Below are positions 3,880-37,012 of a stretch of DNA of 42,741 nucleotides, in pieces. The stretch comes from Akkermansiaceae bacterium (lineage in GTDB: Bacteria > Verrucomicrobiota > Verrucomicrobiia > Verrucomicrobiales > Akkermansiaceae): NCBI GenBank assembly GCA_903908495.1, contig CAIVSK010000278.1:1-42741 (forward strand). Direction: 5' to 3'. Below the pieces are notes generated by a model. It saw only the letters and a program-made list of their open reading frames with translations. It did no database searches and was not told where the DNA came from. The position numbers and the translations under genes are program-made. The stretch's first letter is position 1; each line of letters opens with the position of its first letter.

Positions 3880-4020
3880 GTGCGAAACTGCTATGAACGG
3901 GCCGTCGCCACCCACCCGGATTCGGACGACGCCCGCATCAACCTGGCCGTCCGGCTCGAGAATGACCGCCGCCTGCCCGAGGCCTGGGACCAGGTCGAAG
4001 CCTGCCGCGGCGTCACTTGA
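3880..4020 (+). pseudogene. Remnant of a TPR protein (3' end only)
   Basis: A 46-codon reading frame, opened by a GTG at 3880 and ended by TGA at 4018-4020, encodes a TPR-like helix pair: CYERAVATHPDSDDARINLA followed by LPEAWDQVEACRGV. In the same frame a TAG lies a short way upstream and no long gene precedes it, so this looks like the last repeat of a lost TPR gene. It overlaps the 3' end of the GH28 gene on the other strand by 8 nt. It could also be a chance frame, but the A-x-x-H/P-D/S pattern is typical of TPRs. Confidence 0.4.
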
Positions 4021-12810: not shown

Positions 12811-13367
12811 GAGCTGGATGTTTTGTTGGAAAAATGAGCCGGGCGGATCGGACCGGTCAAAATGATGAGGCTGAAAGGGGTGGCTAGCGTGAAATCTCGC
12901 GGCAGAGCCACAACCCTGCCGTGCGAGGTGGATCCGGGATTTCCGGCCGCAAGACAATCAGAGCCAAAAGTTTGGTAGACGGCCTCAGCCCGCCCACCCG
13001 CGGGTGAGGCTTGATAGACAGGTGCGGCCTGATTGTATACAAAACATTGCCGAATCACCGGATACGCGGAGCAATTCGTGCGATTGAGCAACTTCACCGG
13101 CCGCGGCGAGGCCGGGCGTCCACCCCTGGACGTGGCAGCCACGCGGATGACTTGCTGCGAGACCCAGCAATCACGGCCTGCCACAAGGACGTGGCAGCCA
13201 CGTGCGGGCGTCCTCTCACCTTGCCGCGCATGTTCGGGCAGGATCAAGATTGCTGCGGGCGGTCTTGCTGCTTGCCTTGGCGGCGGTTTTAGCGGCACTT
13301 TGCGGGGCCACTAACCAAGCTTGCCAGCCGGCTGGTCTCGGTCCCGATCCCCCACCCTCTTATTGCC
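12811..13367. other. Intergenic region between divergent PATR and GH97 genes
   Basis: This 557-nt gap lies between the divergent starts at 12810 (minus) and 13368 (plus) and must hold both promoters. I find no convincing -35/-10 pair and no frame with protein-like character. The right half carries two copies of a short palindromic repeat, listed separately. Confidence 0.5.
13128..13202. repeat. Two copies of a short palindromic repeat
   Basis: The 16-mer GGACGTGGCAGCCACG occurs at 13128-13143 and again at 13187-13202. Its core, CGTGG-CAG-CCACG, folds as a small hairpin, and the second copy extends it by one pair. The first copy is also preceded by CGTCCACCCCTGGACG, a second hairpin sharing bases with it. 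This looks like a REP-type dispersed element rather than an operator, but only this one locus is visible. Confidence 0.5.
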
Positions 13368-21500: not shown

Positions 21501-24352
21501 ACAGCCCCTGCCAGCGAACCGGTGACCGACAGGGTGCCGCCGTTGACGGTGGTCGCGCCGGTATAGGTGTTGACGGCGGGCAGGATCCATTTGCCAGTGC
21601 CGTTCTTGGTCAGCGCGAGCTTGCCCAATCCGCCGGTCACGTCGGTCAGGGTGGCGGCCAAGGTATTACTATCGGCATTGGTCCCGGTCAGCGTGAGGGT
21701 GCGGTTGATATCCGCAGTTGCTCCGAGGGTGGGGACGAATGCATTGGTGGATGCTGCGGTGGTTGGCGTGTTGAGGGTGATCGTGCGGTTGGCGACGTCG
21801 ATCGCGCTGATCGTGGTGCCTGCGGCAAGCGCCGCTCCGGTCACGGTTTGGCCGACGGCGAGGCTGGACGAGTTATCGAGAGTGAGCGTGCTCGCACCGA
21901 TGGCGCAGGGCGCGCAGTTCTGGCTGGTGGAGCCGGCGTTGTGGGTCAAACTGGTGGATGTCAGATTGAGCGGGCCGCTGCCGCTGGCGTCGATCGTACC
22001 GCCTTTGGGCAGCAGGCTGACGCTGCGGTTGGACGAGTCACCGGTGCCGACATAGCGGAGGGTGCCGCCGAGAGTGATCGATGCGGCGGTGCCAAGCGAA
22101 CTGGCGGTGCCGCTGTTGACGAGCTTGACGACCTGGGTGCTGCCGGAATTGAGGATTGGAGCTTGGTCGAAGTCGTTGTCACCGCGGGTTAGCGAGAGCA
22201 GACCGCTGCCACAGTGGATGATGGTGGTCTGATAGGTGCCGTTCGTCGCAACCTTGCTGTTGAGGACAAAATCTCCGGCTCCAAAGAACGACATCGGGCG
22301 AATACTGGATGCGGCAGCTGTGTTGCGGAGGGTCGATGTGGTGGTGGAACTCGCGCCGATCGTCAGGGTGCCCGCCACCGATTCCATGCCGTAAGCACCG
22401 CCGGTTTCGGCGATGACCACATTGCCGGCCCAAGTGTTGTTGCCGGACACATTGCGCAGGGAAACCTGGTTGCCGATCGTGGCACTGCCGGAGGCGTAGA
22501 AGGCCTTGCCGGAGATGTTGAGCGTCTTGTTAGCGTCGATGGTGATGTTGTTGGCCAGTTCGAGAATCGAAGTGCCCTGGTTCAAGCCGCGCATCTGAAC
22601 GGTGCGCACCGTGGCTGGAGCACCGAGCGCCTCGGCATGGGTGACGCGGATGCTGCCGTAATTGTTGGAGGCGGTCGCTCCGGACGTCAGGTTGCCGGTG
22701 GTCCAAGTGCTCGGGCCGGAGAGAATCAGGCTGGCGGAACCGGTTTTGGTGACGACGGCGGTGCCTTGGATGCCGCCCGAAAGTTCGGTGGTGCCGGTAT
22801 TGGTGGCGACGGTCAGAGCTCCGGTTAGAATCGTGGGACCGGACACGAGAAGGTATCCGCTGCCGGTTTTGGTGAGCGTGGCGGACGCCTTGAGTCCGCC
22901 GCTGAGTTCGGCGGTGTTGGCGCTCACCTGGATCGTGCGGGATGCGCCGTTGAGGTCAAGCGGGTTTGCCAAAATGAGCTTGCTATCGGCCTGGGCGCCA
23001 TTGAGCCACAAGCTGTTGCAGTTGATTTGCGCGACGTTGGACTGCGAGCACGTCAGCGTGACGGTGCCAGCGGCGGTGGCTACTGCGCTCAGAGTGATCT
23101 GGTTGGTGCCGATGGCCGTGATGGTGCTGTTGGCGGGAATGCCGGTGCCGGTGATGGTCATGCCAACCGTCAGGCCGGTGGTGGTGATGGCAGTCACCGT
23201 GTTCGAGCTGAGGGCGGTGGTACCGGTGGGTGCCGCGTAGGCCATGAATTGCAAATCCGCCCCGGCGCCGCCAAGGTTGACGGCCAAATTTCCGCCGCGG
23301 GCACCGAGGCCGCTGATGCGGGAGCCACTCTGCACATACTGCCACTGGATCTGGCCGGCGCCGCTGCCGACGGAGCGGGTGAAGGAGCCGGACGATTGGA
23401 ACAGGCCGTCAGCGGAAGCGGTGAGCAACAGGTTGCTAGCAGCCGGCAAGGTGCCGGGCTCGGCCCACAGGGTGCCTTGGGAATGGCTGGTGCCGCCGCT
23501 CCACGAGTTGGACGTGTTAGTCAGATGGACGCCCTCGTTGTCGCAATATCGGAAAGTGACCAAATTGGCACCACCGCTGATGGCACCGGTGATATCAAGG
23601 CGGGATGCACCGCTGTTGGCGATGCGCACGGCACCGGTATTCACGGTGATGGGTCCCTGAATGGTATTCACGCCAGTGCCGGCACCGACGAGCGTGCCAA
23701 GGGGGGCTGAGTTTCCTCCCTGTCCGGTCAGATTGAAGGAAACCGTGGCCGGCACGGTGATTCCGCTACCTTGGAAACGACAAAACTGCCCGCTGGTGCC
23801 GGTGCCCACCACCGTGATGCTGGTGAGGCCGCCGAGCGCCGCCGCGGAGCTGAACTGCACGCCGGCGCTGTTGGTGCTGGCAACGTCCGGGAGGGTGACC
23901 GCCCCGCTGATCGTGTTGGTGCCGGACAGAATCACCGTGCCGGCCCCCGTTTTGCTGAAACCGTTGGTGCCTGCCAAGGGCGCTGAAATCGTGTGTCCGG
24001 TGCCCGTCAACACATTCAGAACCGGCGCGCTCGCACCGTTATCCAGGGTCAGCGCGTTGCTGCCCGCAAAAATCCAGCTGTTCGAAACCGTCGTGGCATC
24101 CTGCACCTTGAGCGTGCCGATCGTGTAGGCCGCGTCCATCGTCACGGTCACGTCCGGAGTGATGTTGACGCTGCTGAAGTCCGCAATGGCCGAGGGACCG
24201 GACGCCACCGTGGCGCTGGTCCACTTGCTGGTGTCGCTCCAGTTACCAGACCCGTTGATGCTCCAGGTGCCATTGGCGGCTCGCGCCGGGCCGGACATGC
24301 ACAAAATGGCGAAGGAAGGAAGCAGGCATGCGGCAAGTTTTTTGGTTTTCAT
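18566..24352 (-). CDS. Giant exported PATR beta-strand-repeat protein (1928 aa)
   Basis: The ATG at 24352 starts a standard signal peptide (MKTKKLAACLLPSFAILCMS, site near ARA). The mature protein opens with a W-rich motif (WSINGSGNWSDTSKW) and consists mainly of PATR repeats such as LTKTGSGYLLVSGPTILTG. A second W-module begins near residue 1066 (IWTGSVNGTWDLNTSANW). A beta segment with the pattern VGMTITGTGIPANSTITAIG (about 380-435) recurs in diverged form at about 817-870 (VGQTVTGAALAAGTTISAI), an internal duplication. The last 117 residues carry a calcium-loop motif (DHDNDGVANGIEYF) and end IFVRLKVTGP, closely related to the tail of the gene ending at 7375. No beta-barrel translocator is present. 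It is likely a surface or biofilm protein of unknown ligand. Confidence 0.9.
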   Translation of the reverse strand: MKTKKLAACLLPSFAILCMSGPARAANGTWSINGSGNWSDTSKWTSATVASGPSAIADFSSVNITPDVTVTMDAAYTIGTLKVQDATTVSNSWIFAGSNALTLDNGASAPVLNVLTGTGHTISAPLAGTNGFSKTGAGTVILSGTNTISGAVTLPDVASTNSAGVQFSSAAALGGLTSITVVGTGTSGQFCRFQGSGITVPATVSFNLTGQGGNSAPLGTLVGAGTGVNTIQGPITVNTGAVRIANSGASRLDITGAISGGANLVTFRYCDNEGVHLTNTSNSWSGGTSHSQGTLWAEPGTLPAASNLLLTASADGLFQSSGSFTRSVGSGAGQIQWQYVQSGSRISGLGARGGNLAVNLGGAGADLQFMAYAAPTGTTALSSNTVTAITTTGLTVGMTITGTGIPANSTITAIGTNQITLSAVATAAGTVTLTCSQSNVAQINCNSLWLNGAQADSKLILANPLDLNGASRTIQVSANTAELSGGLKASATLTKTGSGYLLVSGPTILTGALTVATNTGTTELSGGIQGTAVVTKTGSASLILSGPSTWTTGNLTSGATASNNYGSIRVTHAEALGAPATVRTVQMRGLNQGTSILELANNITIDANKTLNISGKAFYASGSATIGNQVSLRNVSGNNTWAGNVVIAETGGAYGMESVAGTLTIGASSTTTSTLRNTAAASSIRPMSFFGAGDFVLNSKVATNGTYQTTIIHCGSGLLSLTRGDNDFDQAPILNSGSTQVVKLVNSGTASSLGTAASITLGGTLRYVGTGDSSNRSVSLLPKGGTIDASGSGPLNLTSTSLTHNAGSTSQNCAPCAIGASTLTLDNSSSLAVGQTVTGAALAAGTTISAIDVANRTITLNTPTTAASTNAFVPTLGATADINRTLTLTGTNADSNTLAATLTDVTGGLGKLALTKNGTGKWILPAVNTYTGATTVNGGTLSVTGSLAGAVTVNTGATLALGGSVGNVTVTGGTLAGNGTVNGNLNLSGTLAPDPTLSPALNVTGTLNITGPVFIAPASGMTPGTYPILTFAALTGSTSGFTSGYRTSSFASDFTSASITFGPGIPLIWTGSVNGTWDLNTSANWLDLGYSAQTFRWLDAVTFDSNGSAQPNVNLIGELRSDTVTVNASTVDYTLGGSGTISQGRLTKSGSSMLTVTTSNSYAGGSTLSGGRVRVGSATALGSGPITLAGSGLSSDSATARSLANGLTISANTIFGDATDSGALSVAGNVTLSGTSPVLTTVSQLTLNGVIDGSGLGFTKAGSNTLVLGGSNSYDGATVITSGTVYLGNASALGSNASGTTVQSGAQVNFGNLTNGSTVDEPFDIAGDGGAAGVLHVGSGKAITLSNAITLSAASTIKTDGGAGFTFSNTVTGTDTDLTFAMDGSVVTTVSGNLSLGAGNLIKNSTSRLILNGTDSYASTFINGGTLQIGTQTLTGNLGSGAVTDNGVLLLDRSDAAYTVANDISGSGSITIGQVTGGSVGAVATLTGNNSFAGGITINSGGLKIHNVGALGTGAKTINLTNGTAGRPQLYLDGSAGDLTLPATISFITSSANFTEPAIGNVAGDNVINGNFTLAAGGGSTAISVVGGSLTLNGNIAANTSLRFLLLGGLSGANGTINGVISDGTNPMGVTLSGANVWTLTGNNSYTEATAVTTGGTLVVNGNQSAATGAVNLSSGATLTGVGTLGGAVNNNGTVAPGNGIGTLTTGAFTFGSTGSLVCQINSATLAADVLSINGNLNIDAASTLMVSDIGAGTPASGSKFVLISYTGAWNGVTFAGLGDGTTVTLGANQYLIKYNETISGTNKAVTLTVVGGFSSWAATNAPGQLMNQDHDNDGVANGIEYFMGLTGSGFTANPGVVNGKVSWPKGAQYSGVYGSDYVVQTSTTDMSPASWSDVAAGDSHLSDGKPLEYTLPQGDVKIFVRLKVTGP

Positions 24353-24489
24353 GGTAAGACAAGGGCAGGGCTAACCAATCCACCCCCTCGGCGTCAAGGC
24401 TACGTTTCAAGATTTCGCACTTTGGCTCGCGCAGGGGCCGCGCAGGACTGAGATTGCTTGCCGCAGCAAACCGCCGCGCTCCAATCAGT

Positions 24490-24529
24490 TTCGCAAATCA
24501 GACAGCGATTTCGCGAATCCGTCATTGCT
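24490..24529 (+). promoter_or_regulatory. TTCGC box, copy 1
   Basis: TTCGC at 24490 and TTCGC at 24510 are 20 nt apart start to start, and ATTGCT begins 14 nt after the second. AGAC occupies the invariant AGNC position inside the first half. The spacing is identical in five copies in this window, all in the same orientation. Copy 1 is the more distal of two upstream of the first LamG gene. Confidence 0.6.
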
Positions 24530-24575
24530 CGATGACGCGGAATTCTGATCTAATCATCATGCAATTGGGTATTAC

Positions 24576-24616
24576 CTCCGGTTCCAGCGGGGCATCCGAC
24601 GCAAGTCGGCAGCCTC
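24576..24616 (+). other. GNRA-loop hairpin, diverged copy between the two TTCGC boxes
   Basis: The left arm GGGGCATCCGAC (24589-24600), loop GCAA and right arm GTCGGCAGCCTC (24605-24616) form a stem with two internal mismatches. It matches the second hairpin found downstream of the three LamG genes. CTCCGG at 24576-24581 corresponds to the right arm of the first hairpin there, but a clear left arm is missing. Confidence 0.45.
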
Positions 24617-24634
24617 CTGCTCTTTCCGTGAAAT

Positions 24635-24674
24635 TTCGCTTAAAAGACATTTTATTCGCCAAATAAACATTGCC
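24635..24674 (+). promoter_or_regulatory. TTCGC box, copy 2 (proximal to LamG protein 1)
   Basis: TTCGC at 24635, TTCGC at 24655 and ATTGCC at 24669 keep the exact 20/14 spacing; AGAC is at the AGNC position. The box ends 174 nt before the ATG at 24849. It aligns without gaps to the copies upstream of the next three transcription units. Confidence 0.65.
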
Positions 24675-24848
24675 CGAGGAAGCGCTTTCTGGTTTCTTTA
24701 TAACGGATTCGAGCATGGGTGCCAGAATCACGGAAGCCGTTCCGATTCGGGCCCGCCCCACCCCTTGAAGCACCCTGTCGCAACAACATTCCCTCTCCCA
24801 TCGCCAATGAATGAATCGATAACCCCTGCACTCCCGCAGTCCTAACAC

Positions 24849-27800
24849 ATGAAACAGACCCCCATTCAACCGCCCCCAACGGGGCACTCACGTTGGCCCG
24901 TCGGCAACGCAGCCCAAGCCGCATCGAATCGTCACAGCAAGCAATTCCGACCCCTCCACCTCGCCGCCAAATCCGCCGCGCTCGCTGCGGCAGTGCTGAT
25001 GGCAAGCGGGTTGAACCGGGCGTCAGCCCAGGATCCGGACCTCATTTTCTCGGTGCTCAGCAGCGAGTGTCCGGCCACCGGGAATTGGCCGATCGCAGAT
25101 CCGGTGGGCAGTTCGCTGTCGCGCAACGGGTCACCCACCACCATGATCATCAACGGTGAAAAGTGGGAATGGAACAACCGCATGACCTCCCAGGACTGCT
25201 GGCGGGTCGGCGGCCCCTACTCCTCCATCGCCTGCAACGGCGTGACCATTGTGGCGGCGGTGCGACCGGTGTATTGCAATCCGGGCGGCGAACCCCGCGG
25301 CGAGATCGTGGACATCATGTACGATCGGCTTGCCCTGGCGATCAGCCACGCCGACGGCCGCATCATGGTGTGCAGAAACCACTGGGTTGACTTTGGCCCC
25401 GCCATTCCTAACGGGCAGATCACGATCCTGAGCCTGGTGGTGCAGCCCAACGGCTCGTATGAGGTCTTCGCCAACGGCGTTTCGAAGATGACGGGTGGCG
25501 CAGATGGCGATTTCAGCAGCCAAATGGTTCCCACGGGCAGTGAAAGCTTCAAAAAGTACGTTGACGTCGGCCGCAACGATCCGGACGGCTGGTCCGCCTT
25601 CAATGGCAACATCGGCGACGTTTACCTCTACAAAGTGGCGATTGACTCCACCAAGCGCGGCAATTTGGAAACCGCGATGATCGCGAAGTTTGGCACGGCG
25701 GCGATGTACACCGTCACCGCCACTGCCGGGCCGGGTGGTTCGATCAGTCCGTCCGCCGCCGTGGCGGTGCCGCAAAACACCAATCAGACATTCACCATCA
25801 CCACCAATTACGGCTCCATCCTCAACGACGTGCTGGTGGACAACGTCTCACAAGGCGCGGTGAGCAGCTACACGTTCAGCGACGTGACGGCCGACCATAC
25901 CATCGCCGCGAGTTGGACCTCGCTGCCGACCTTCTCCGGCACGGTGAGCGGTTCTTCCGGCCCGATTTATTCCGCCAGAGTGGCGCTCAGCGATGGCAGC
26001 AGCGTGCATACCAACGCCGCCGGCCAGTATAGCATCATTGCCCCGGCCGATGGCGCATATACGTTGACCGCCTCGAAGGGTGGCTTTGTCACCTCTGCCG
26101 CGCTGCCGGCGACCATGACCGGCGGAGTCTCGCTCACCGGCCTGAATTTCACCCTCGCCAGCAGCTCAGGCCTGGATCCGCTGGTGGTGCTGGATGCATC
26201 CACCCTGACGGAAGGCACCGATCTGGCGGCGTGGCCAAACACCGGCACCCTCGGCGGAACCTTCGACAAACATCCGGGCGGTACCGGTCCCAATGTGGTG
26301 GCCAATTATGCCGGCACCGGCAAACAAGCGGTTGAGTTCATCCAGCCCTCTCAGGACGATGCCGGAAGACGGACCATGGCGTCGGCCATCCCTGCACCGG
26401 GCGAAATCACCGGTAATTCCGACTGGACCATCTCCACTGACCTCTATCGGCCAGATATGGGAGGCAACGATAGTGCCTATATGAGCTGGTCCGGCACCCA
26501 GGATGGCGTTGGCGGGTCCGCGGCATTCTTTTACAAAAACAATTGGGCCTACATGCATTACGCCAATGACAGTGGCTTCAACGCGGTGCCAAGCGCCAGC
26601 GCATGGCATAATGTGACCATCACCTTTGATGGGACTCGCGAAAAACTGTACGTGGATGGCGTTCTAGACTCCAACAATTCCCGCAGCCTCAATATCGGCG
26701 CATCCCACCTCATGATTGTTGGCAGCAGGACGGATAACAACACCTGGGGCAACGACAATTATTGGCGCTTCAACGGCGCAATCTCAAAACTCCAGATCTT
26801 CGACCAGGCCCTCAGCGCGAGTCAAGTGGCAAAACTCGCGGGTGCCCCGACCTACGACTGGGCAGGCCCCGACAATGGCATCTGGAGCGATCCGGCCAAC
26901 TGGAGCAGCAACGTGCCGGTCTCCGGCAAAGTGGCGGAGTTCTCGGATGCCGGCGCCGGAGCCACCGTCCAACTCGACATGCCGGTGACCATCGGCGGCG
27001 TCGAATTCACCAACACGGTCGCCAACCAAACCATCGCTGCTAACAATCCAGCCAACAATCTGACCCTCAAGACCGTGGCGGTGGACGCCGGATCGCATTC
27101 CATCAGCGCCAATGTCAATGCTCCCGGCGGCCTGATGGTCAGTGGTGGCGGACAGGTGAGCTTCAGCGGCGCGGTGACCTCCAGCGGTGGCGGTTGGTTG
27201 CCGACCCAAATCAATGGTGCCAGCGTCGTGCTGAGCGGCTCGGGCTCGTGGACCGATGTCTCGGGACAATACCTCGCCATCGGCAATGACGCGTCAACCG
27301 GCACTCTGATCATCAACGACTCCGCCACGTTCGACTGGTCGGGCACCGCCTCGATGTGCATCGGCTGGGGCGCAGGAGGCACCGGCAAAGTGGTGCAGAA
27401 TGGCGGCACCGTCAAGGCCCCACAGACGGCCACAGCCTGGTACAACAACAGCGGCCCCGGAATCATGATGGGCCTTTGGGATGGCACGGTCAGCAACGCC
27501 GAATATGACCTCAACGGCGGCACCCTGATCACCTGTAATGTCTATGGAATTAATGAAGGGTCCGGCATCACCGTCCAACCTCCCACCGGCACCGTGCTGT
27601 TCAGGTTCAACGGCGGCGTGCTGCAGGCAACCCAAAACGACAGCACGGATAGCTCGGTCGTCAGCGAAGGTACCAACCACCTGCTGGGCAACATGACCCA
27701 CGGCTATGTCGGCACCAACGGCGCCATGATCGACACCGCGTCGTTCTCCTGCAGCATTGACCAGGCCCTCGAACATGATCCGGCCGCCTCGGCCACCGAC

Positions 27801-28472
27801 GGTGGCTTGACCAAGCTGGGCGAGGGCAACCTGACCCTGCTGCGGGCGGCCACCTATACCGGCGCAACCAAGGTGCAGGTTGGCACGCTCGCCTGTGCCA
27901 CGCTCGCCTCGCTGGCACCCACGACGGTGGAAATCGATGCTGCGGCCACCCTTGAACTCAGCTACACCGGCACCCAGGGCGTTACCGGCCTGAAGATCGG
28001 CACCAGCGTCATGCCGCTCGGAACCTATGGTAGCGTTGGTTCTGGCGCGCCGATTGAGAACTCGCACATCACCGGCCCAGGGATGGTGACGGTGGCTGCC
28101 AACCCGTACGCCACCTGGGCAGCGAACTATCCGGGCCACGACCTGAGCAACCCCGCAGCCGACTTGGACCACGACGGCCAGAGCAATTTCCAGGAATTCG
28201 CCTTCGGCCTCGATCCGACCACGGGCTCCTCGGTCAATCCGATCAGCGTGCCATTCGACAAGACTACTCACAAGTTCAGCTACACCCGCTATGCGGCCAG
28301 CGGCCTGAGCTATACGGTGTGGACCAGCCCGGATCTGCAAACGTGGGCCGGACCGGCCGCCGTGAGCGAATCCGTGGGTGCCCCCAACAGCGCCGGGGTG
28401 GTAACAGTGCAAGTGACGCTAACCAGTCCTCCGGCAGGCAACACCCTGTTCGTGCGGGTTAAGGCGGAATGA
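24849..28472 (+). CDS. Exported multidomain LamG protein 1
   Basis: This 1207-residue protein has a long basic leader and a signal peptide (about 1-61, core LAAKSAALAAAVLMASGL, site near ASA). In order it holds a LamG/ConA-like jelly roll (about 62-280; EPRGEIVDIMY, then DVGRNDPDGWSAFNGNIGDV) and an InlB-type B-repeat (about 287-357; TATAGPGGSISPSAAVAVP). Next are a carboxypeptidase-regulatory-like fold (about 362-437), a second LamG domain (about 442-667; WHNVTITFDGTREKLYVDG), a PATR-like beta region opening YDWAGPDNGIWSDPANWSS (about 668-1090), and the shared C-terminal module (about 1088-1207; DLDHDGQSNFQEFAFGLDPT, ending LFVRVKAE). The parts suggest carbohydrate binding at the cell surface. 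It is the first of three tandem paralogues. Two TTCGC boxes lie upstream. Confidence 0.87.
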   Translation: MKQTPIQPPPTGHSRWPVGNAAQAASNRHSKQFRPLHLAAKSAALAAAVLMASGLNRASAQDPDLIFSVLSSECPATGNWPIADPVGSSLSRNGSPTTMIINGEKWEWNNRMTSQDCWRVGGPYSSIACNGVTIVAAVRPVYCNPGGEPRGEIVDIMYDRLALAISHADGRIMVCRNHWVDFGPAIPNGQITILSLVVQPNGSYEVFANGVSKMTGGADGDFSSQMVPTGSESFKKYVDVGRNDPDGWSAFNGNIGDVYLYKVAIDSTKRGNLETAMIAKFGTAAMYTVTATAGPGGSISPSAAVAVPQNTNQTFTITTNYGSILNDVLVDNVSQGAVSSYTFSDVTADHTIAASWTSLPTFSGTVSGSSGPIYSARVALSDGSSVHTNAAGQYSIIAPADGAYTLTASKGGFVTSAALPATMTGGVSLTGLNFTLASSSGLDPLVVLDASTLTEGTDLAAWPNTGTLGGTFDKHPGGTGPNVVANYAGTGKQAVEFIQPSQDDAGRRTMASAIPAPGEITGNSDWTISTDLYRPDMGGNDSAYMSWSGTQDGVGGSAAFFYKNNWAYMHYANDSGFNAVPSASAWHNVTITFDGTREKLYVDGVLDSNNSRSLNIGASHLMIVGSRTDNNTWGNDNYWRFNGAISKLQIFDQALSASQVAKLAGAPTYDWAGPDNGIWSDPANWSSNVPVSGKVAEFSDAGAGATVQLDMPVTIGGVEFTNTVANQTIAANNPANNLTLKTVAVDAGSHSISANVNAPGGLMVSGGGQVSFSGAVTSSGGGWLPTQINGASVVLSGSGSWTDVSGQYLAIGNDASTGTLIINDSATFDWSGTASMCIGWGAGGTGKVVQNGGTVKAPQTATAWYNNSGPGIMMGLWDGTVSNAEYDLNGGTLITCNVYGINEGSGITVQPPTGTVLFRFNGGVLQATQNDSTDSSVVSEGTNHLLGNMTHGYVGTNGAMIDTASFSCSIDQALEHDPAASATDGGLTKLGEGNLTLLRAATYTGATKVQVGTLACATLASLAPTTVEIDAAATLELSYTGTQGVTGLKIGTSVMPLGTYGSVGSGAPIENSHITGPGMVTVAANPYATWAANYPGHDLSNPAADLDHDGQSNFQEFAFGLDPTTGSSVNPISVPFDKTTHKFSYTRYAASGLSYTVWTSPDLQTWAGPAAVSESVGAPNSAGVVTVQVTLTSPPAGNTLFVRVKAE

Positions 28473-28481
28473 ATCAGTTAT

Positions 28482-28559
28482 GTGGATCGTGGATCGTGGA
28501 TCGTGGATAAAGGTTAGAGGTTAAAGGTTAGAGGTTAAAGGTTAGAGGTTAGAGGTTAG
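28482..28559. repeat. Two adjacent heptamer tandem repeats
   Basis: GTGGATC is repeated three times and followed by a partial unit (28482-28508). After 2 nt, AGGTTAG/AGGTTAA follows in seven uninterrupted units (28511-28559). Both arrays have a 7-nt period. They start 10 nt after the stop of LamG protein 1 and are absent at the same place after the other two LamG genes. Confidence 0.85.
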
Positions 28560-28627
28560 ACCATGCCCCGCAGCGATCCATCATCCTCGAATTAGCAAAA
28601 TCCACCCATGAACTGAACCATGTGACT

Positions 28628-28688
28628 TCCGGAGTGAAGGATTCTCTCCGGACCCCGCGGGGCCGCCGATGAAAGTCGGCGGCCCCGC
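28628..28688 (+). terminator. Two-hairpin 3' element, copy after LamG gene 1
   Basis: Hairpin 1 pairs TCCGGAG (28628-28634) with CTCCGGA (28646-28652) around 11 nt. Hairpin 2 pairs GCGGGGCCGCCGAT (28657-28670) with GTCGGCGGCCCCGC (28675-28688), 14 pairs including one wobble, closed by a GAAA loop. No T-tract follows, so it may be a terminator of an unusual kind, an mRNA-stabilising end or a structured RNA element. Confidence 0.55.
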
Positions 28689-28779
28689 ATTGCGTAGAGG
28701 AGGCATGCCACACACACATTATTGGGCAGGATGGCTCGATTCCAGCCCCGGCAGCCGACCGCCGCCGAACATCCCACGT

Positions 28780-28819
28780 TCGCAAATTAGCCATTAGATT
28801 CGCTTAATGACCATTGCCT
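28780..28819 (+). promoter_or_regulatory. TTCGC box, copy 3 (upstream of LamG protein 2)
   Basis: TTCGC at 28780, TTCGC at 28800 and ATTGCC at 28814 show the exact 20/14 spacing, with AGCC at the AGNC position. It ends 118 nt before the ATG at 28938. TGAGG follows it, resembling CGAGG after copy 2. Confidence 0.65.
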
Positions 28820-28937
28820 GAGGGACGGGTTTCCTGCTCTCCTCGCCAGTGTAACACCGCCTTGATACCGGTGAACCGGAACCGGGGCAAGTCTACCACC
28901 CACCCACCAACCCGCCAGCAAGCCAGCAATCGTTCCC

Positions 28938-31418
28938 ATGAACAGCCAGTCCTTAAAATCCATCACCTCCGCCTGCAATGCACCGCCGCCCAGGCATCGC
29001 ACCGCATTCCGCAAATCCCTGGCACTCGCCGCCCTTGCCTTGGCATTCGGCAGCGGACCCCGCGCCAATGCAGGCCTGGTACTCGAACTGAAACCCGCCG
29101 ACTACGATGCTCCCAGCAAGAAGTGGCCCATCGCCGACGGCAGCATCCTGCCCTCGGGCCCCGCTTCCGACTATTTTGCCTGCGCGACTTGGGCCACCAC
29201 CCCTTCGCTGACCACCAAGGTCAATGCGGGCGACGGCCTGAGCTACAAGGCCGTCGACTTCACCGCAGCAGCCACCATCCTTGGTGGCCCGCTGTGCCCG
29301 GCATCGCTGGGCGGTGCCAACCCCAAAACCATCGAGGCTTGGTGCTTCCAACCCACCAATGCCGGTGGCGACGCCATGACGCTCATCGATCTGAGTCGCC
29401 AGGGTGGACCCGACAACAGCAACTTTTCATTCTGCAACTCGCTGTACAACCGTTCGATCTGGTCGCCGCCCTACATCGAAGGCTGGAACGCAAGCAATGC
29501 GGTGCGCTCAGGCAATTGGGTGCATCTGGTCGCCAGCTACGACGGCGCGTTGCTCAACCTCTACGTCAACGGCGCGCCGGACAAGACCGGCATTGCCCAC
29601 ACCTTCGCCACTGAAGCCGGCGGCTCGATCTCCATCGGCATGATGCGCTACGGCTTCGACGGCACCGCCCACAGCACCAATAATGCCGACGGCTGGAATA
29701 GCTACCGGGGGTACATGGGGTCCATCCGCGTGTATGACGAAGCCAGAAGCGCCAGCCAAGTCAGCGCTGACTATGCCCTGGGCGTCAACTATGGCGAGAT
29801 CGGCGCGGGCCTGCCCAAGATCACCGGGTCGGTTTCCGGCAGCGGCGGCACCATCAGCCCCACCGGAGTGGTGTATGTGGCTGCGGGCGGCACTCAGACC
29901 TACACCTTCACCCCGAATCTGGGCTACCAGGTTTCCGACGTGCTCGTCGACGATCTCAGCGACTCCGCCGCAGTCACCGCCGCCAGCTATACCTTTACGG
30001 GCGTGGCGTCCGACCACACGATTGTGGTTAGTTTCGCTGAACTGCCAAAGCAGACGGTCACCGGCCTGGTGACCGACGGAGCCGCGGGCGTCATGGGAGC
30101 GAAGGTGTACTTCAAGACCAGCGCCAACGCGTCGGTCAGCCCGACATTCACCACCAACACGGTGGACGCCGCCGGCAGCTACTCGATCATTCTGCCACCC
30201 GGCACATGGTATGTCACCGCCAGCGAATTGCACTACTTCACTCCTGCCGACGCGACGTTCACGGTGGCGAGCTCCGCGGTGAGCGTGCCGGACATCGCGC
30301 TGACAGCCAACCCGAACTGGGCGGTCCTGTTCACCCTCAACACCGATGATCTGGCTGCCATCGACGACGGCGCACGCATTGTGAGCTGGGAAGGTTTTGC
30401 CGCCTTCCAAACTTATAACAACGAACTGCCCTTGCTCGGCCCCACGGTGGAAACCATCGATGGCGTCAAGTGGGAAAAGAACGCCCGCGCGGCCTACAAT
30501 GGCAGTGCCTCACCGATTATTCATGACCGGGGTGACGGATTTAAAATCGGAGCCTACGCCAGCGATATCGTCACCGATGGCGTGACGATCGTGGCGGTGG
30601 TGAAGCCGATCCACAAGTCGGGAGACACCGAACCGCGCGGCGAAATCGTGGACATCTTCTATCAAGAACTGTTCCTCGCGATCAACCACCTCACGGGTGA
30701 AGTCATCGTCTGCACCCGCGGCTACGGCCAGCATAACACCGGCTACATGATCCCGGAAGGCCAGAAGACCATCCTCAGCCTGGTGGTGCAAGCCGGCGGC
30801 CAGCTCGCGCTGTTCGCCAACGGCGTGCCGAAGTGGAGCTTTGCCAGCGGCGTTGACTACACGTCCCTCAAATTGTCATGGTCCAACACGATCGACGTGG
30901 GACGCAACGGGTACGACGGCTGGTCCACCTTCAGCGGCAACATCGGCGACGTGTATGTTTACCGCAAGGCGCTGGATGACAGCACCCGCGAAACGCTCCA
31001 AACCAGCCTGGCCACCAAGTTCGGCATCACCCTGGGCACCGCAACGCTCGACTACGCCACCTGGGCATCGACCAAATATCCCGGCGCCAACCTCACCGAC
31101 CCGGCAGCCGATTTGGATGGCGACGGCATGAGCAACTTCCGGGAATACGCCTTCGGCCTCAACCCGACCCTCGGCACGTCGGCCGATCCGATCAATGTGC
31201 CGCTCAACAAGAGCCTCGGCACCTTCAGCTACACCCGGACGGCCAACACCGGCCTAACCTACACAGTGTGGCACTCGACGAACCTTCTGGATTGGGTCTC
31301 CACCGGCGCAAGCGAAGGCACGGTCACCACCCTTGATGGTGTGGAGACGGTCCCAGTCACGCTGGACGCCGCTCTGCTAACCGAACCGAAGCTGTTCGTG
31401 CGGGTCACCGCCCAATGA
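28938..31418 (+). CDS. Exported multidomain LamG protein 2
   Basis: This 826-residue paralogue has a signal peptide (about 1-46, core SLALAALALAFGSG). A LamG domain follows (about 47-285; WVHLVASYDGALLNLYVNG), then an InlB-type B-repeat (about 294-372; GSGGTISPTGVVYVAAGG) and a carboxypeptidase-regulatory-like domain (about 373-450). A second jelly roll (about 461-700; EPRGEIVDIFYQELFLAI, then DVGRNGYDGWSTFSGNIGDV) is the counterpart of the first domain of LamG protein 1, so domain order is permuted between the two. The PATR region is absent. The C-terminal module (about 706-826) has DLDGDGMSNFREYAFGLNPT and ends LFVRVTAQ. It probably binds a glycan at the cell surface, by analogy only. Confidence 0.87.
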   Translation: MNSQSLKSITSACNAPPPRHRTAFRKSLALAALALAFGSGPRANAGLVLELKPADYDAPSKKWPIADGSILPSGPASDYFACATWATTPSLTTKVNAGDGLSYKAVDFTAAATILGGPLCPASLGGANPKTIEAWCFQPTNAGGDAMTLIDLSRQGGPDNSNFSFCNSLYNRSIWSPPYIEGWNASNAVRSGNWVHLVASYDGALLNLYVNGAPDKTGIAHTFATEAGGSISIGMMRYGFDGTAHSTNNADGWNSYRGYMGSIRVYDEARSASQVSADYALGVNYGEIGAGLPKITGSVSGSGGTISPTGVVYVAAGGTQTYTFTPNLGYQVSDVLVDDLSDSAAVTAASYTFTGVASDHTIVVSFAELPKQTVTGLVTDGAAGVMGAKVYFKTSANASVSPTFTTNTVDAAGSYSIILPPGTWYVTASELHYFTPADATFTVASSAVSVPDIALTANPNWAVLFTLNTDDLAAIDDGARIVSWEGFAAFQTYNNELPLLGPTVETIDGVKWEKNARAAYNGSASPIIHDRGDGFKIGAYASDIVTDGVTIVAVVKPIHKSGDTEPRGEIVDIFYQELFLAINHLTGEVIVCTRGYGQHNTGYMIPEGQKTILSLVVQAGGQLALFANGVPKWSFASGVDYTSLKLSWSNTIDVGRNGYDGWSTFSGNIGDVYVYRKALDDSTRETLQTSLATKFGITLGTATLDYATWASTKYPGANLTDPAADLDGDGMSNFREYAFGLNPTLGTSADPINVPLNKSLGTFSYTRTANTGLTYTVWHSTNLLDWVSTGASEGTVTTLDGVETVPVTLDAALLTEPKLFVRVTAQ

Positions 31419-31515
31419 TGCGGAATAGAAAATGGATGGCGGACCGGAGATAGAGGGCTAGACACGATACTCCTCCGGCCACGCCCCCCCCCTCCGCACC
31501 GACACACAAAAGATT

Positions 31516-31575
31516 TCCGGAGTTATTGGTTTTTCTCCGGACTGGCGGGGCCACTGACGCAAGTCGGTGGCCCCG
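31516..31575 (+). terminator. Two-hairpin 3' element, copy after LamG gene 2
   Basis: Hairpin 1 pairs TCCGGAG (31516-31522) with CTCCGGA (31535-31541). Hairpin 2 pairs GGGGCCACTGAC (31547-31558) with GTCGGTGGCCCC (31563-31574) around a GCAA loop, plus one outer C-G pair. Compared with the other copies, an A-T pair replaces a G-C pair in the stem (CCAC/GTGG against CCGC/GCGG), a compensatory change. It begins 98 nt after the stop codon. Confidence 0.55.
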
Positions 31576-31645
31576 TTCTGCGTGCGGTGCTCATGACCCC
31601 GGGGAGGTCGGATATTGGATAGAAAATGAACGCCGAGTTGTGATT

Positions 31646-31685
31646 TTCGCAAAAAAGACATCGAATTCGCGTATTGAGCATTGCC
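31646..31685 (+). promoter_or_regulatory. TTCGC box, copy 4 (upstream of LamG protein 3)
   Basis: TTCGC at 31646, TTCGC at 31666 and ATTGCC at 31680 keep the exact 20/14 spacing, with AGAC at the AGNC position. It ends 133 nt before the ATG at 31819. Confidence 0.65.
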
Positions 31686-31818
31686 CATGTGAATGACCCC
31701 TGCTTTCCTGATAGGTCATTGATAGTTTTGGCCCGGGAGTCCGGGATTGGGGGCAATCCACCACGCGGATCCCCGCCAAAGTGTCATAACAACAGCAACC
31801 TGATACCGAAAAACACCG

Positions 31819-34800
31819 ATGAATACCCAAACCCCTCATTTCCTCGAGTTAACCCGGAGGGCGTTGGCACTTGCCGGGCCCTTGCTTTGGTTGGGCGCAG
31901 CCAGCGTCGCCCCGGCGGCATCACCGATCAAGGTCGCCGGCCAGATGTTGGTCGATCTGAATTACACCCGCGGCATCACCACGGAGGTCAGCGGCGCCGA
32001 AACCGGGGTCACCAGTTGGACCAATTACGGCACCGCGGGCGGCAGCTTCACCAAGGTCACCCTGTCACCTTATGCCGCAACGATGGGCAGCGCCTACCAA
32101 ACCCCGCCGCGGATGACGGCCAACGGAGGCGTCACGGCACCGGAGGCACCCGGCTCGCGCATGTTGGTGGCCTCGTTTCCGACCCCGCCGCAACTGCAGG
32201 GCAACAGCCCGTACTCGATTGAGGTCTGGTTGTGGAAGAACAACACCGGGACCGACCAGCGCGGGGTGTTCGCATGGACCGAGAATACACCCAGCGGTGC
32301 CGATGCCGGAAAACTGTGCGCCGGAGATCCGGTGGCCCTTCACAACAACGGCAAGGACTTGAATTGGGGCACCATGCCGACCAACGACTCGCTCTGGCAT
32401 CATGTGGTGCTGACCTTTGATGGTGCCACCGAGAAAATCTATCTCGACAACGTGCTGACCAACAGCGCCGCCAAAACCCTCAACATCTCGACGGCCACGT
32501 ATTATCCGATGCTTTTCAGCGGCATCTTCAGTCCCACGCCCCCACAAAGCTCGTTCAGCCTGAACGGCTCGATCGCCGCGCTGAGGGTCCACTCCGCCGC
32601 CTTGACCGCCGCCGACGTGACCAGCAATTTCACCGCCGGCATCAGTGCCGTGCCGGTTCTCGACGTGACCGTCGAGGCGCTGGGCGCATCCGCTATCGGC
32701 GGCACCACCGCCACCCTCAACGGAACCCTGATCTCGACCACGGCACCCGCATCGACGGCATTGACGTTCTACTACGGCAGCACCGACATGGGCACCACCA
32801 CCAGCGGATGGGACCACACCGTCACCCTGGCCGCGCCGCACAACACCGGCGCGTTTTCCACCACGGTCTCCGGCCTGACCCCCGACGCGCCGCTTCTCTA
32901 TCGCATTCACGGCACCAACGCCAATGGCGAGGGCTGGTCCGGCGCAAGGGCCTTCACCCCGACCTATCCCAAGGATATCCTAACCTTCAATTTTGGAGCG
33001 CTGGGTGCCGCCACCATTTCCGGCAACACAATCACCAAGAGTGTGCCGTTTGGCACGACCGTGACCGCGCTTGCGGGCAGCTACACGCACACCGGGGTCT
33101 CGGCCTCGCCTGCCTCGCCGTTCAATCTGGACTTCAGCGGGACGGTGACCTTCACCGTCACCGCCACGGATTTCACCACCAAGGACTATTTTGTGACGGT
33201 CACGGTGCTGCCACCCAGCTACAATTGGGTCGGGCCTAACAACGGCTCGTGGTTCAACGCTGCAAACTGGAGTTCCACCCAACCGGCGGCAGGCAAGGTG
33301 GCGGTGTTCTCAAACGCCGGTGCCGGAGCCACCACTGACATTGACGCCAGCACCGCCACCGCTGGCGGCATCCTGTTTAATAACAACGTGGCCAGCACCC
33401 TGGTCAAGTCCACCACCGGCGACGAACTCACCCTGGACAACTCCGGCGCGGATGTGAACATCACCACCAGCGCGGGCACCCATACCCTCGGCGCGAAAAT
33501 CGTCTCCACCTCGGCCGTGACCTGCACGGGTGCCGGCACACTGGTCCTCTCCAGCGTTGGCAATAGCTTTGCCGTCCTCAAACCCGGCAACTCGACCGCC
33601 AACGGATCATTCCTCATGGACGACTCGGTGGTCAGCAATCCGTCACTGACGCTCACCGGGGGCATCAACAACTTCAGAAACAACAATGGCAACACCCCCG
33701 CCCGCTTCACGATGACGGCTGGCACCCTGACCTTGGGCGGCGATTTCCGCCTGTCCCAGGACGGCACCTTCAGCATCTCCACCATCACCGGCGGTACCGT
33801 CAATCAAACGGCCGGCTGGCTCCAAGTGGGCTACAACAGCGGCGTGGCCACCTTCAATCTGGGCGGCACCGCAGCCTACACCACCACGGGATTTCTGGAT
33901 ATGTCCGACGCCTATATCTGCAATGACTACGCCAACTTCTACGGCTCCTCCACCGCCAGTTTCGGCGGCATCAACATCGTCTCCTCAAACAGCGCAGGCA
34001 TCGGCCAGTACGGCATGATCAATGTGTCGGACTCCGCCTCGCTCACCGCCAATGCGATCCAAATCGGTGTGACCCAACTCAACGCCGCCGGCATCAACAC
34101 CGGTACCGTCAATCAGGACGGCGGCACTCTAACCATCAATGGCAGCGCCTCATTGGCGGTGTCCGCACCCGCCGGGGCCCCGCTCAGCCTGTTAGGTAGC
34201 TATAACCTGTCTGGCGGCGTCTTCAAAGCTCGCAAAGTGACGACGGGGACGGGCAACACCGGCACCCCCCGCCTCAATTTCCATGGCGGCACCTTGGCAT
34301 ACAACGACACGGTCGGGCAAACCGATTTCATCGCCCTCGGCACTCATGGTGCGGTTTACATTTACGAGGGTGCCACCATCGACACCGCCGGCCAGAACGT
34401 CACCGTCAATGCCCCGCTGCTGGCCCCCACCGGTTCCGGGGTCACCAGCATCCCGATCAACACCGGCGGCAGCAACCAGTTCGTCCCAGGTGCTGTTAGA
34501 ATCGTGCGCAATGGTGCCGACACCACCGGCATCGGTGCCACCGCCAGCGCGGTGGTCGATCCGGTCACCGGAGTGATGACGGCCATTCGCATCACCAATC
34601 CGGGCACCGACTACACCCTGCCGCCGACCGTGACCCTCGATCAGGGTGAGGGCAGCAGCGCCACGTTAGGCACGGTGGCCATTGGTGCCAGCGCGACGAG
34701 CGGCGGCCTGACCAAGAAGGGAGCGGGCACGCTCACCCTAACCGGCGCTAACACCTACAGCGGCAATACCACGGTGAATGAAGGCACCCTTTCGCTCACC

Positions 34801-35388
34801 ACCACATGCCTGGCAGACACGGCCGACGTGAAACTGGCAGCCTCCGGCGCCAGCCTGAACCTCAACACCGGTGGCACGGATACCGTCCGCGCGTTTCTCA
34901 TCGGCGGGGTGGCTCAAGCCGTGGGCGAATGGGGCCCGATCGGCTCGGGTGCCACCTATGAAAGCAGCCTCATCACCGGGTCCGGCAAACTTCTCGTCAC
35001 CACTGACGCGGTGATCACTCCCTACACCACCTGGGCTGCCACGAAGTACCCCACCGCCAACCTCACCGATCCCGCTGCCGATTTGGATGGCGACGGCATG
35101 AGCAACTTCCAGGAATTCGCCTTCGGCCTCAATCCCACCACCGGCGCCTCGGTCAACCCGATTAAAGTGCCGTTTGCCAAAACCTCCGGCACGTTCAGCT
35201 ACACCCGCAGCGCAGGCTCGGGCCTGACCTACACGGTGTGGCACTCGACCAATCTGGTGGACTGGGCCTCGACGGGTGTGAGCGTGGGCACCATCACCAC
35301 CAACGACGGCGTGGAAACCGTGCCGGTCACCCTCGCCTCCACGCTGCTGACCGCTCCCAAACTCTTCGTGCGGGTGACCGCCGAGTGA
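31819..35388 (+). CDS. Exported multidomain LamG/PATR protein 3
   Basis: This 1189-residue protein has a signal peptide (about 1-35, core ALALAGPLLWLGAASVAPA) and then a LamG domain (about 36-278; LWHHVVLTFDGATEKIYLDN). An Fn3-like domain follows (about 281-385; LTPDAPLLYRIHGTNANGEG), then a DUF5018-like strand set (about 387-466; ILTFNFGALGAATISGN). A long PATR region opens YNWVGPNNGSWFNAANWSS (about 468-1065), including LTKKGAGTLTLTGANTYSG. The shared C-terminal module (about 1069-1189) has DLDGDGMSNFQEFAFGLNPT and ends LFVRVTAE. It thus joins the LamG family of its neighbours to the PATR body of the giant genes. A surface glycan-binding role is inferred. Confidence 0.87.
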   Translation: MNTQTPHFLELTRRALALAGPLLWLGAASVAPAASPIKVAGQMLVDLNYTRGITTEVSGAETGVTSWTNYGTAGGSFTKVTLSPYAATMGSAYQTPPRMTANGGVTAPEAPGSRMLVASFPTPPQLQGNSPYSIEVWLWKNNTGTDQRGVFAWTENTPSGADAGKLCAGDPVALHNNGKDLNWGTMPTNDSLWHHVVLTFDGATEKIYLDNVLTNSAAKTLNISTATYYPMLFSGIFSPTPPQSSFSLNGSIAALRVHSAALTAADVTSNFTAGISAVPVLDVTVEALGASAIGGTTATLNGTLISTTAPASTALTFYYGSTDMGTTTSGWDHTVTLAAPHNTGAFSTTVSGLTPDAPLLYRIHGTNANGEGWSGARAFTPTYPKDILTFNFGALGAATISGNTITKSVPFGTTVTALAGSYTHTGVSASPASPFNLDFSGTVTFTVTATDFTTKDYFVTVTVLPPSYNWVGPNNGSWFNAANWSSTQPAAGKVAVFSNAGAGATTDIDASTATAGGILFNNNVASTLVKSTTGDELTLDNSGADVNITTSAGTHTLGAKIVSTSAVTCTGAGTLVLSSVGNSFAVLKPGNSTANGSFLMDDSVVSNPSLTLTGGINNFRNNNGNTPARFTMTAGTLTLGGDFRLSQDGTFSISTITGGTVNQTAGWLQVGYNSGVATFNLGGTAAYTTTGFLDMSDAYICNDYANFYGSSTASFGGINIVSSNSAGIGQYGMINVSDSASLTANAIQIGVTQLNAAGINTGTVNQDGGTLTINGSASLAVSAPAGAPLSLLGSYNLSGGVFKARKVTTGTGNTGTPRLNFHGGTLAYNDTVGQTDFIALGTHGAVYIYEGATIDTAGQNVTVNAPLLAPTGSGVTSIPINTGGSNQFVPGAVRIVRNGADTTGIGATASAVVDPVTGVMTAIRITNPGTDYTLPPTVTLDQGEGSSATLGTVAIGASATSGGLTKKGAGTLTLTGANTYSGNTTVNEGTLSLTTTCLADTADVKLAASGASLNLNTGGTDTVRAFLIGGVAQAVGEWGPIGSGATYESSLITGSGKLLVTTDAVITPYTTWAATKYPTANLTDPAADLDGDGMSNFQEFAFGLNPTTGASVNPIKVPFAKTSGTFSYTRSAGSGLTYTVWHSTNLVDWASTGVSVGTITTNDGVETVPVTLASTLLTAPKLFVRVTAE

Positions 35389-35485
35389 TCCGGATAGAAG
35401 GCGGGGATTGCAGACCGCGGATACCACCAGATAGGACCCCTGATCAGCGACTCCCCTCCTCCGCTTCAACCCGACACACTCGTTT

Positions 35486-35548
35486 TCCGGAGTTTTTGGT
35501 TTTTCTCCGGTTTTGACTCGGGGCCGCTGACGCAAGTCGGCGGCCCCG
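35486..35548 (+). terminator. Two-hairpin 3' element, copy after LamG gene 3
   Basis: Hairpin 1 pairs CCGGAG (35487-35492) with CTCCGG (35505-35510). Hairpin 2 pairs CGGGGCCGCTGAC (35519-35531) with GTCGGCGGCCCCG (35536-35548), 13 pairs with one T-G wobble, around GCAA. It begins 98 nt after the stop codon, the same distance as the copy after LamG gene 2. Confidence 0.55.
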
Positions 35549-35665
35549 TTTCGTCCCAAAATCCGGGAATAGAAACCGCGGATAACAGGCCATGGCGGGA
35601 GAATGCGCCGAGCTGCGCGCAGGGTCATGCTCTTCGAAGAGGGTTCGGCACGATGCCAAACCCAG

Positions 35666-35710
35666 CCGGCAGGATGCCGGCGCTCCCCGTGGACCGGGCA
35701 TCCTGTCCGG
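35666..35710. repeat. REP-like palindromic repeat upstream of the TlpA-like gene
   Basis: CCGGCA-GGA-TGCCGG (35666-35680) is a hairpin, and CCGGGCATCCTGTCCGG (35694-35710) is an imperfect inverted copy of it. The core GGCATCCTG is shared with the repeat inside the Bat-operon membrane protein gene near 38930, so the two probably belong to one dispersed family. Confidence 0.5.
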
Positions 35711-35769
35711 AAAATTGCGGGCTCATTCAATTTTGTTGCATACAACCAATTCCGGGCCGCAGCCGCGAT

Positions 35770-35809
35770 TTCGCATTTTAGGCGTTGGATTCGCGAATTG
35801 GTTGTTGTC
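35770..35809 (+). promoter_or_regulatory. TTCGC box, copy 5 (upstream of the TlpA-like gene and Bat operon)
   Basis: TTCGC at 35770 and TTCGC at 35790 are 20 nt apart, with AGGC at the AGNC position. GTTGTC stands at +14, where the other copies have ATTGCC or ATTGCT. It ends 96 nt before the ATG at 35906. It is the most diverged copy and the only one not in front of a LamG gene. Confidence 0.55.
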
Positions 35810-35905
35810 GCTGGTGCCGGGATGCTGTTTGCTCCGCGCGGCACAGCTGGCCGGACCGGTACCGTGGCAGGCGTGGCTGCAACCCATTTCAAACCATCTG
35901 ACCCA

Positions 35906-37012
35906 ATGAAAGCCGTTTTTCACAGGATGCTTGTTGCCTTGGTGGCCGTTACGGCCGCGCACTCGTGTTTGGCAGCCCTGAAGGTGGGCGATGCCGCACC
36001 GAAGTTGCAGGTCGGCCGCTGGCTGCAAGGCGAGGCCGTGACGGATTTCGAGGGCGACAAGGTCTACATCGTCGAATTCTGGGCCACTTGGTGCGGCCCC
36101 TGCAAGGCGTCCATCCCACACGTCAATGACCTCCATGAGCGTTTTGCCGACAAGGGCCTGGTGGTCATCGGTCAGGATGTGTTTGAAAAGGACGACTCGC
36201 TGGCGGCACCCTTTGTGCAGGCGATGGCGGGCAAGATGACTTACCGAGTGGCCACCGACGACAAGAGCGATGGTAGCTGCGGGCGCATGGCCCAGAACTG
36301 GCTGGCCGCAGCCGAACAAAACGGCATCCCCTGCGCTTTCATCATCAATAAAAAGGGCCGCATCGTTTCCATCGGCCATCCCATGGCCATCAAGGAAGCT
36401 GAATTGGAAACCCTCCTCGCCGAACCGTCCACCGCTCCCAGCACCCCCGCCCCCGCCCGCCCCGGCATCACCGCCACGGCACCCAGCCCCAAGGCCCAGG
36501 CATTGGCCGCGCGGGCCGCTGCCGAAATCCGCGCCGCCGAGTGGGACAAGGCCGAGGCCAGCGTCGCCGAACTGCAAGATGCTCTGACGGAAAAATTCCG
36601 CGACATCGGAGGTTTGCTCAACCTCGACCTGCTGCTCGCCCGCAAACAGAGCGGCGACGCGCTGCAACTCGCCAAACTCCTGTGCGAGGACTTCAAGGGC
36701 AACCCGGCCGTGCTCAGCGCCGTCGCCGCGCACCTCGCCCAACAACCCGGCACCGCCGCCCCTCTGCTGGCCGCCGCCGAAAAAATCGCCACTCCCATCA
36801 GCGCCGCCACCGGCGCCGTGCAAGCCGGCGCGCTGGCCACCTTGGCGCGCATCGCCTTCCTGCGCGGCGATCAACCCGCCGCTGTGAAATTCCAAACCAA
36901 GGCGGTGGAGTGCGCCGCTGGCAAACCGGACGCCGCCTGTCAACAGGAATTGTTAGAATCGTACCAACAAGGTCATTTGCCGCCAAGCGAACAAACTGAC
37001 AAACCCCGCTGA
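35906..37012 (+). CDS. Exported TlpA-like thioredoxin with a helical C-terminal extension
   Basis: The 368-residue protein begins at the ATG at 35906 with a signal peptide (MKAVFHRMLVALVAVTAAHS, site near CLA). The thioredoxin fold (about 25-165) has the active site WCGPC with Cys63 and Cys66, in the context EFWATWCGPCKASIP, and the cis-proline region GIPCAFIINKKGRI. TlpA-like proteins reduce or isomerise disulfides outside the cytoplasm. A Pro/Ala-rich linker (about 172-195) joins a helical, TPR-like tail of about 170 residues that ordinary TlpA proteins lack. The MoxR gene starts 45 nt downstream, so it may head the Bat operon. A TTCGC box lies upstream. Confidence 0.85.
   Translation: MKAVFHRMLVALVAVTAAHSCLAALKVGDAAPKLQVGRWLQGEAVTDFEGDKVYIVEFWATWCGPCKASIPHVNDLHERFADKGLVVIGQDVFEKDDSLAAPFVQAMAGKMTYRVATDDKSDGSCGRMAQNWLAAAEQNGIPCAFIINKKGRIVSIGHPMAIKEAELETLLAEPSTAPSTPAPARPGITATAPSPKAQALAARAAAEIRAAEWDKAEASVAELQDALTEKFRDIGGLLNLDLLLARKQSGDALQLAKLLCEDFKGNPAVLSAVAAHLAQQPGTAAPLLAAAEKIATPISAATGAVQAGALATLARIAFLRGDQPAAVKFQTKAVECAAGKPDAACQQELLESYQQGHLPPSEQTDKPR

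Follow-up and report, generated by a model that had tools for sequence, protein, structure and literature searches.

The recurrence of one 40-base sequence ahead of four genes for exported proteins raises the question of what this box is, and whether it marks a shared mode of expression or only the history of the genes that follow it. A preliminary description of the window (the whole stretch of 42,741 nucleotides that was analysed) had reported five gapless copies facing the same way, and had proposed a dimeric regulator, a special sigma factor or a shared leader RNA as their reason. A search of the whole window on both strands for TTCGC-N15-TTCGC finds exactly five places, all on the + strand (24490, 24635, 28779, 31646 and 35770), and these align without a gap across 40 nt, as described. 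Four of the earlier positions are right and the third had been placed one base late, at 28780; the AGNC at positions 11-14, the TTG at positions 36-38 and the last six bases had all been read correctly, and the proximal boxes do end 96-174 nt ahead of ATG codons. The boxes, with their E values against the genus profile described below, and their presumed targets are as follows.

24490..24529, + strand: box 1, distal, 145 bp upstream of box 2 (E 4.1e-8)
24635..24674, + strand: box 2 (E 1.2e-5)
24849..28472, + strand: presumed target, exported LamG protein, 1207 aa
28779..28818, + strand: box 3 (E 1.4e-8)
28938..31418, + strand: presumed target, exported LamG protein, 826 aa
31646..31685, + strand: box 4 (E 2.8e-9)
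31819..35388, + strand: presumed target, exported LamG protein with autotransporter-type repeat, 1189 aa
35770..35809, + strand: box 5 (E 8.5e-6)
35906..37012, + strand: presumed target, exported TlpA/ResA-like protein

The repeated 40-base box is a real motif. From base composition, about 0.001 occurrences of TTCGCN15TTCGCN10TTG would be expected per window on both strands, and 0.1 of TTCGCN15TTCGC, and an unfiltered profile search of the window ranks the same five boxes at the top (E 8e-8 or better), with the next match at E 0.02. The suspicion that tandem duplication contributed is correct for the three LamG-type genes, which share a 300-nt 3′ repeat (61-78% identity) and a recurring hairpin, but duplication does not account for the motif itself because boxes elsewhere in this genome, and in others of the genus, precede unrelated genes. 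The fifth box had already been noted to stand before an unrelated gene, and both the TlpA gene of the window and its 74%-identical counterpart in genome G033 carry it.

The hairpin is GC-rich and lies upstream of boxes 2, 3, 4 and 5 (window 24588-24619, 28658-28689, 31546-31577 and 35519-35550), three of its four copies directly following a LamG gene. Its core, GACGCAAGTC, is present in three of the four copies, and other loci, about 520 kb in all with some counted twice, contain it once. Because one copy sits between boxes 1 and 2, the arrangement suggests that box 1 is a remnant of a lost gene or the promoter of a very short transcript.

How widely the box is distributed was examined in this genome (6.2 Mb; G000) and in 72 others of the genus. 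The pattern with AGNC and at most one mismatch gives seven matches in this genome and none in a backward control. Across the 73 genomes, TTCGCN15TTCGCN10TTG occurs 69 times in 22 genomes, and 52 of these matches fall in nine: G000 (8), G012 (3), G025 (4), G032 (1), G033 (17), G049 (1), G050 (9), G052 (7) and G063 (2). The other 17, spread over 13 genomes, were set aside as background, a reversed control giving 14 over all 73 genomes, and none of these 17 places is among the profile matches at E≤0.1. With a profile built from 43 sites, and a genus search whose stricter filters lose weak matches, 85 sites reach E≤1e-3; they fall in 11 of the 73 genomes, with none in the other 62, and 14 are in this genome and the rest in 10 of the 72 others. 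A stricter pattern run over 84,980 species genomes, from which records of the window's own genome were possibly left out, recovers 19 stretches, each of them from a MAG that bears the title Verrucomicrobia or Akkermansiaceae bacterium, and among 20 other genomes of the family 19 have no box and one has a weak partial match.

The anatomy of the motif was derived from 43 non-redundant sites and consists of two 20-bp units in tandem, TTCGCaAAwTgGaCAnTGgA followed by TTCGCgaAwTGGnCATTG, with a weaker conserved zone at about positions 50-66 that peaks at 59 and 64. Because the search pattern prescribed both TTCGC elements and the TTG, the free evidence lies in the remaining conserved positions (A8, C14, A15, A28, T30, C34, A35 and others). 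One unit matches the other at 68% identity, against 13-28% at four other shifts, a figure to which the search pattern itself contributes. In nine genomes searched with any gap from 7 to 25 between the TTCGC elements, the gap was 15 in 36 of 40 matches, 14 in two, 16 in one and 20 in one; a few profile matches are 21-bp variants (G000:C194, G033:C323 and G033:C320). The idea of two equal half-sites that are spaced by two helical turns and would suit a dimeric regulator is thus supported by a fixed 20-bp period, and tandem asymmetric half-sites at such a period are the form taken by operators of AraC/XylS-family activators.

What follows the units resembles a promoter. With the closing TTG read as a -35 element, a T....T hexamer stands 17 bp after TTGNNN in 26 of the 43 sites, where 2.1 would be expected at any single offset, and at a spacer of 16-18 bp in 34; a side peak at 12 bp (19 of 43), which is a point against the explanation favoured below, is due to two other conserved T positions. 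In the window, each of the five boxes has the hexamer at 17 or 18 bp, giving these predicted promoters.

Box 1, + strand: -35 TTGCTC 24525-24530, -10 TCTAAT 24549-24554, 18-bp spacer
Box 2, + strand: -35 TTGCCC 24670-24675, -10 TTTCTT 24693-24698, 17-bp spacer
Box 3, + strand: -35 TTGCCT 28814-28819, -10 TCTCCT 28838-28843, 18-bp spacer
Box 4, + strand: -35 TTGCCC 31681-31686, -10 TTTCCT 31704-31709, 17-bp spacer
Box 5, + strand: -35 TTGTCG 35805-35810, -10 TTTGCT 35828-35833, 17-bp spacer

The frequent -10 forms (TTTCAT, TCTCAT, TTTGAT) are poor when compared with TATAAT, which is probably why a scan for consensus sigma-70 promoters, with five predictions, placed none at a box; such poor -10 elements are what activator-dependent promoters would be expected to show. 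An iterative search for the -10 element recovers 6.4 bits per site, versus 4.9 and 4.7 in two control windows further downstream. In five orthologous promoter pairs from the sister genomes G050 and G052, chosen since both retain the pattern, identity is 96% in the box (a figure that this choice biases upward), 91% in the spacer, 97% in the -10 and 78% in the upstream 100 bp, and at 90% on the downstream side the contrast is small. The closing TTG is accordingly best read, from its sequence context, as the putative -35 element of a sigma-70-like promoter whose spacer is 17 bp and whose -10 is weak; the proximal half-site abuts or overlaps this predicted -35, as at AraC/XylS-family operators.

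The same layout bears on the two other proposals for the box. Were the TTCGC repeats recognition elements of an alternative sigma factor, the fixed spacing and the mostly fixed orientation toward a gene would be expected, but the repetition of one unit (in part a product of the search pattern) argues against this, as does the position of the motif upstream of an ordinary TTGNNN-N17-TNNNNT; no core elements departing from that form were seen. With a weak -10-like hexamer 17 bp after the TTG, a sigma-70-type layout, the special sigma factor put forward earlier is not supported, and we consider it very improbable. Less probable still, to the point of being barely credible, is that the box begins a conserved leader RNA: it does lie 5′ of genes in the sense orientation, but information content falls to background beyond position 66, where the leader would start, and Rfam has no match at the window boxes. 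The scan of 24000-36500 against Rfam gave one sub-threshold miRNA match, away from any box.

The genes behind the boxes have features in common. Each site was asked for an ORF on its own strand, 200 aa or longer, beginning no more than 350 nt downstream and having a hydrophobic N-terminus, a crude test for export. Of 68 sites with enough sequence, 52 pass both parts, ten have an ORF whose N-terminus is not hydrophobic, and six have no ORF; of 3000 positions drawn at random from these loci, 12.6% pass both parts and 37.5% the first only. The enrichment upstream of exported-protein genes that the preliminary description had named as support is therefore present. Among 20 profile matches not used in the model, two of them at E 0.0136, 11 pass both parts, four the first only and five neither; two profile matches in this genome at E 0.0136 have no suitable ORF downstream. 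The 16 of 68 sites that fail one or both parts, and likewise nine of the 20 blind matches, count against the explanation that we favour below. For the TlpA/ResA-like gene of the window the start at 35906 is preferred because an in-frame ATG at 35822 falls within the predicted promoter.

A Pfam scan of 19 target ORFs finds LamG, TlpA-like, Thioredoxin_8, GH2, GH127, alpha-L-arabinofuranosidase, SASA esterase, DUF6055, metallophosphatase and prepilin-type families, no family for two of the ORFs, and no xylose-metabolism family in any of the 19. Membership of the pseudopilins in NCBIfam Verru_Chthon was rejected, the matches being below cut-off, and a literature search by that name gave no match. 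A DUF6055/LamG target at L009:6214-10047 (G000:C28) matches NCBIfam Svx/AvrXca at 157.9 of 625 bits, and this assignment was also rejected, the score being far below the cut-off. Within the window, GH28 and GH97 genes (4013-5362 and 13368-15374) have no box, and the regulon therefore leaves out some nearby carbohydrate enzymes. Two giant minus-strand ORFs with passenger-associated-transport repeats (7375-12957 and 18566-24352; 1860 and 1928 aa) are also without a box.

Which protein might read the box is suggested by a second locus of the same genome. There a box at C420:15533-15570 points at a pseudopilin gene, and a gene transcribed away from it (G000:C420:15694-16896) encodes a 401-aa protein with an AraC-type domain (G000:C420:16636-16872). 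Pfam places a C-terminal HTH_18 at residues 315-393 (53.8 bits against a cut-off of 33.6) and an N-terminal Peripla_BP_3 sensor at residues 102-284 (53.8 bits against 26.5), the make-up of a XylR-type regulator, and its sole sequence relative in the PDB is E. coli XylR. The two share the order of sugar-sensor followed by AraC DNA-binding domain (4FE4/4FE7), but the match is a distant one (E 7.1e-11), confined to residues 177-389.

Orthologues of this regulator are 69-100% identical in G000, G052, G050, G012, G033, G025 and G063 and 53% identical in G059; after these, the best match in the genus drops to 28% identity (E 1.1e-26). In six genomes (G000, G012, G025, G050, G052 and G063) the gene lies divergent from a box at a distance of 78-231 bp, and in G059 the same divergent arrangement spans about 690 bp. 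That longer distance counts against the explanation favoured below, as does the G033 orthologue, which has no box alongside, the best candidate being a broken half-site-like match at E 0.91. Orthologues are present in eight of the nine genomes with at least two profile matches, the ninth being G032, and in none of the 64 others (hypergeometric 7e-10, uncorrected for relatedness, and made optimistic by shared ancestry). With Sua5 identity as a proxy for relatedness, the distribution of box and regulator appears patchy: both are absent from the close relatives G013 (91%; 76% complete), G018 (86%) and G058 (86%), and both are present in the distant G063 (75%) and G059 (72%).

These observations have to be weighed against the possibility that the box is an activator operator for some other, unlinked regulator and that the XylR-type gene beside it is a mere neighbour. 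There are 16 AraC-type domains in this genome to choose from, and boxes occur without a detected orthologue in G032 (four sites; 82% complete), G049 (one site; 97% complete) and G060 (one site; 94% complete). Conversely, of 386 genomes sampled across the order, seven have a regulator match at E≤1e-60, and the one outside the genus (G387, 63%) lacks the predicted boxes, none being found at E≤0.05 and only half-site-like stretches lying around its regulator gene; its sites may have diverged, the regulator may serve a different role in G387, or our assignment may be wrong. Against an unlinked binder stand the co-occurrence across genomes and the direction of the neighbouring box, which faces away from the regulator gene, so that this gene is not simply the target of its own neighbour. 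In addition, when 63 sequences around boxes were scanned for AraC domains only, using the C420 protein and Pfam, the sole related domains were those of the regulator orthologues, at six loci, plus one unrelated gene; a MarA probe of the ORFs near boxes gave no match. On balance an unlinked binder seems unlikely to us.

We therefore think it likely that the box serves as operator for a dimeric XylR-type activator, the C420 orthologue group, and is joined to a sigma-70-like promoter, because its form matches AraC/XylS-family tandem sites and a XylR-type protein is linked to it. One regulator monomer would recognise each 20-bp unit, placing one helix-turn-helix on TTCGC and its second, about one turn further along, on CAnTG, and the promoter-proximal unit would end in the TTG that doubles as the -35 element. 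Binding of the box by the C420 regulator is what we infer from these arrangements, and the regulator presumably activates rather than represses: bound to its effector it would occupy both units and aid RNA polymerase, switching on exported proteins of which several would degrade polysaccharides. The ligand is presumably a sugar, and the GH127, arabinofuranosidase and GH2 targets suggest one freed from an arabinose- or galactose-containing polysaccharide; because GH127 and arabinofuranosidase are among the targets, our guess would be L-arabinose.

The layout of the box is not new. In the available text of PMC4514859, AraC/XylS-family operators are consecutive asymmetric sites, each touched by the two helix-turn-helix motifs of one monomer in adjacent DNA turns, with TGCA-N6-GGNTA-N6-TGCA-N6-GGNTA for XylS and CACC-N5-CTTCAA-N6, twice, for MekR. 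Like the XylS, MekR, AraC and MtlR operators treated there, the box has two consecutive asymmetric half-sites of two short blocks each, upstream of the -35, but its half-site is TTCGC-N8-CANTG and its period 20 bp, compared with 21 bp summed from the XylS and MekR formulas, a difference that counts against our reading. A predicted motif of Vibrio XylRA, which the available text of PMC12125979 describes as two AT-rich direct repeats before xylan-utilisation genes and as resembling XylR sites, is likewise a pair of direct repeats, but TTCGC-N8-CANTG is a different sequence, and unlike those of XylR and XylRA the targets of the box are exported LamG, pseudopilin, TlpA and arabinofuranosidase-type proteins. 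The earlier remark that no motif of this form had been described thus holds, as far as these sources go, for the box itself, of which we recognised no publication, and fails for its layout. A word search of titles and the starts of abstracts, in which the motif letters were not searched, found no study of such a Verrucomicrobiota regulon, motif or promoter, or of a link between pseudopilins, LamG proteins and polysaccharides. Switches of this kind are already known, and what appears to be new is the operator sequence, together with the regulon and the genes in it.

For the broader proposal, that one XylR-type regulator runs a genome-wide regulon comprising a pseudopilin operon, giant LamG surface proteins, a thiol-redox protein and arabinan/galactan-type enzymes, we see the case for and against as evenly matched. 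If it is true, the regulon would be the equivalent of a polysaccharide-utilisation locus with its genes dispersed, and a single sugar signal would call up both a pilin-like apparatus and surface proteins. The analysis also provides a predicted regulator-operator pair and a target list for a group of Verrucomicrobiota, and the shared switch would tie pseudopilin and LamG/DUF6055 proteins that are so far uncharacterised to enzymes that degrade polysaccharides, which gives a clue to the role of these proteins.

Two minor observations concern genes near other boxes and regulators. At G000:C131 (L128) a second AraC-type gene, not orthologous to the C420 regulator, lies convergent to a box-bearing SASA-esterase gene. 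Weak boxes in G059 (L138; G059:C64:2389-2429) and G060 (L139; G060:C105:7073-7113) precede a gene whose translation reads as Xaa-Pro-peptidase-like, and a similar gene follows the regulator gene in G387 (G387:C24; L148); this gene is possibly a second, older target.
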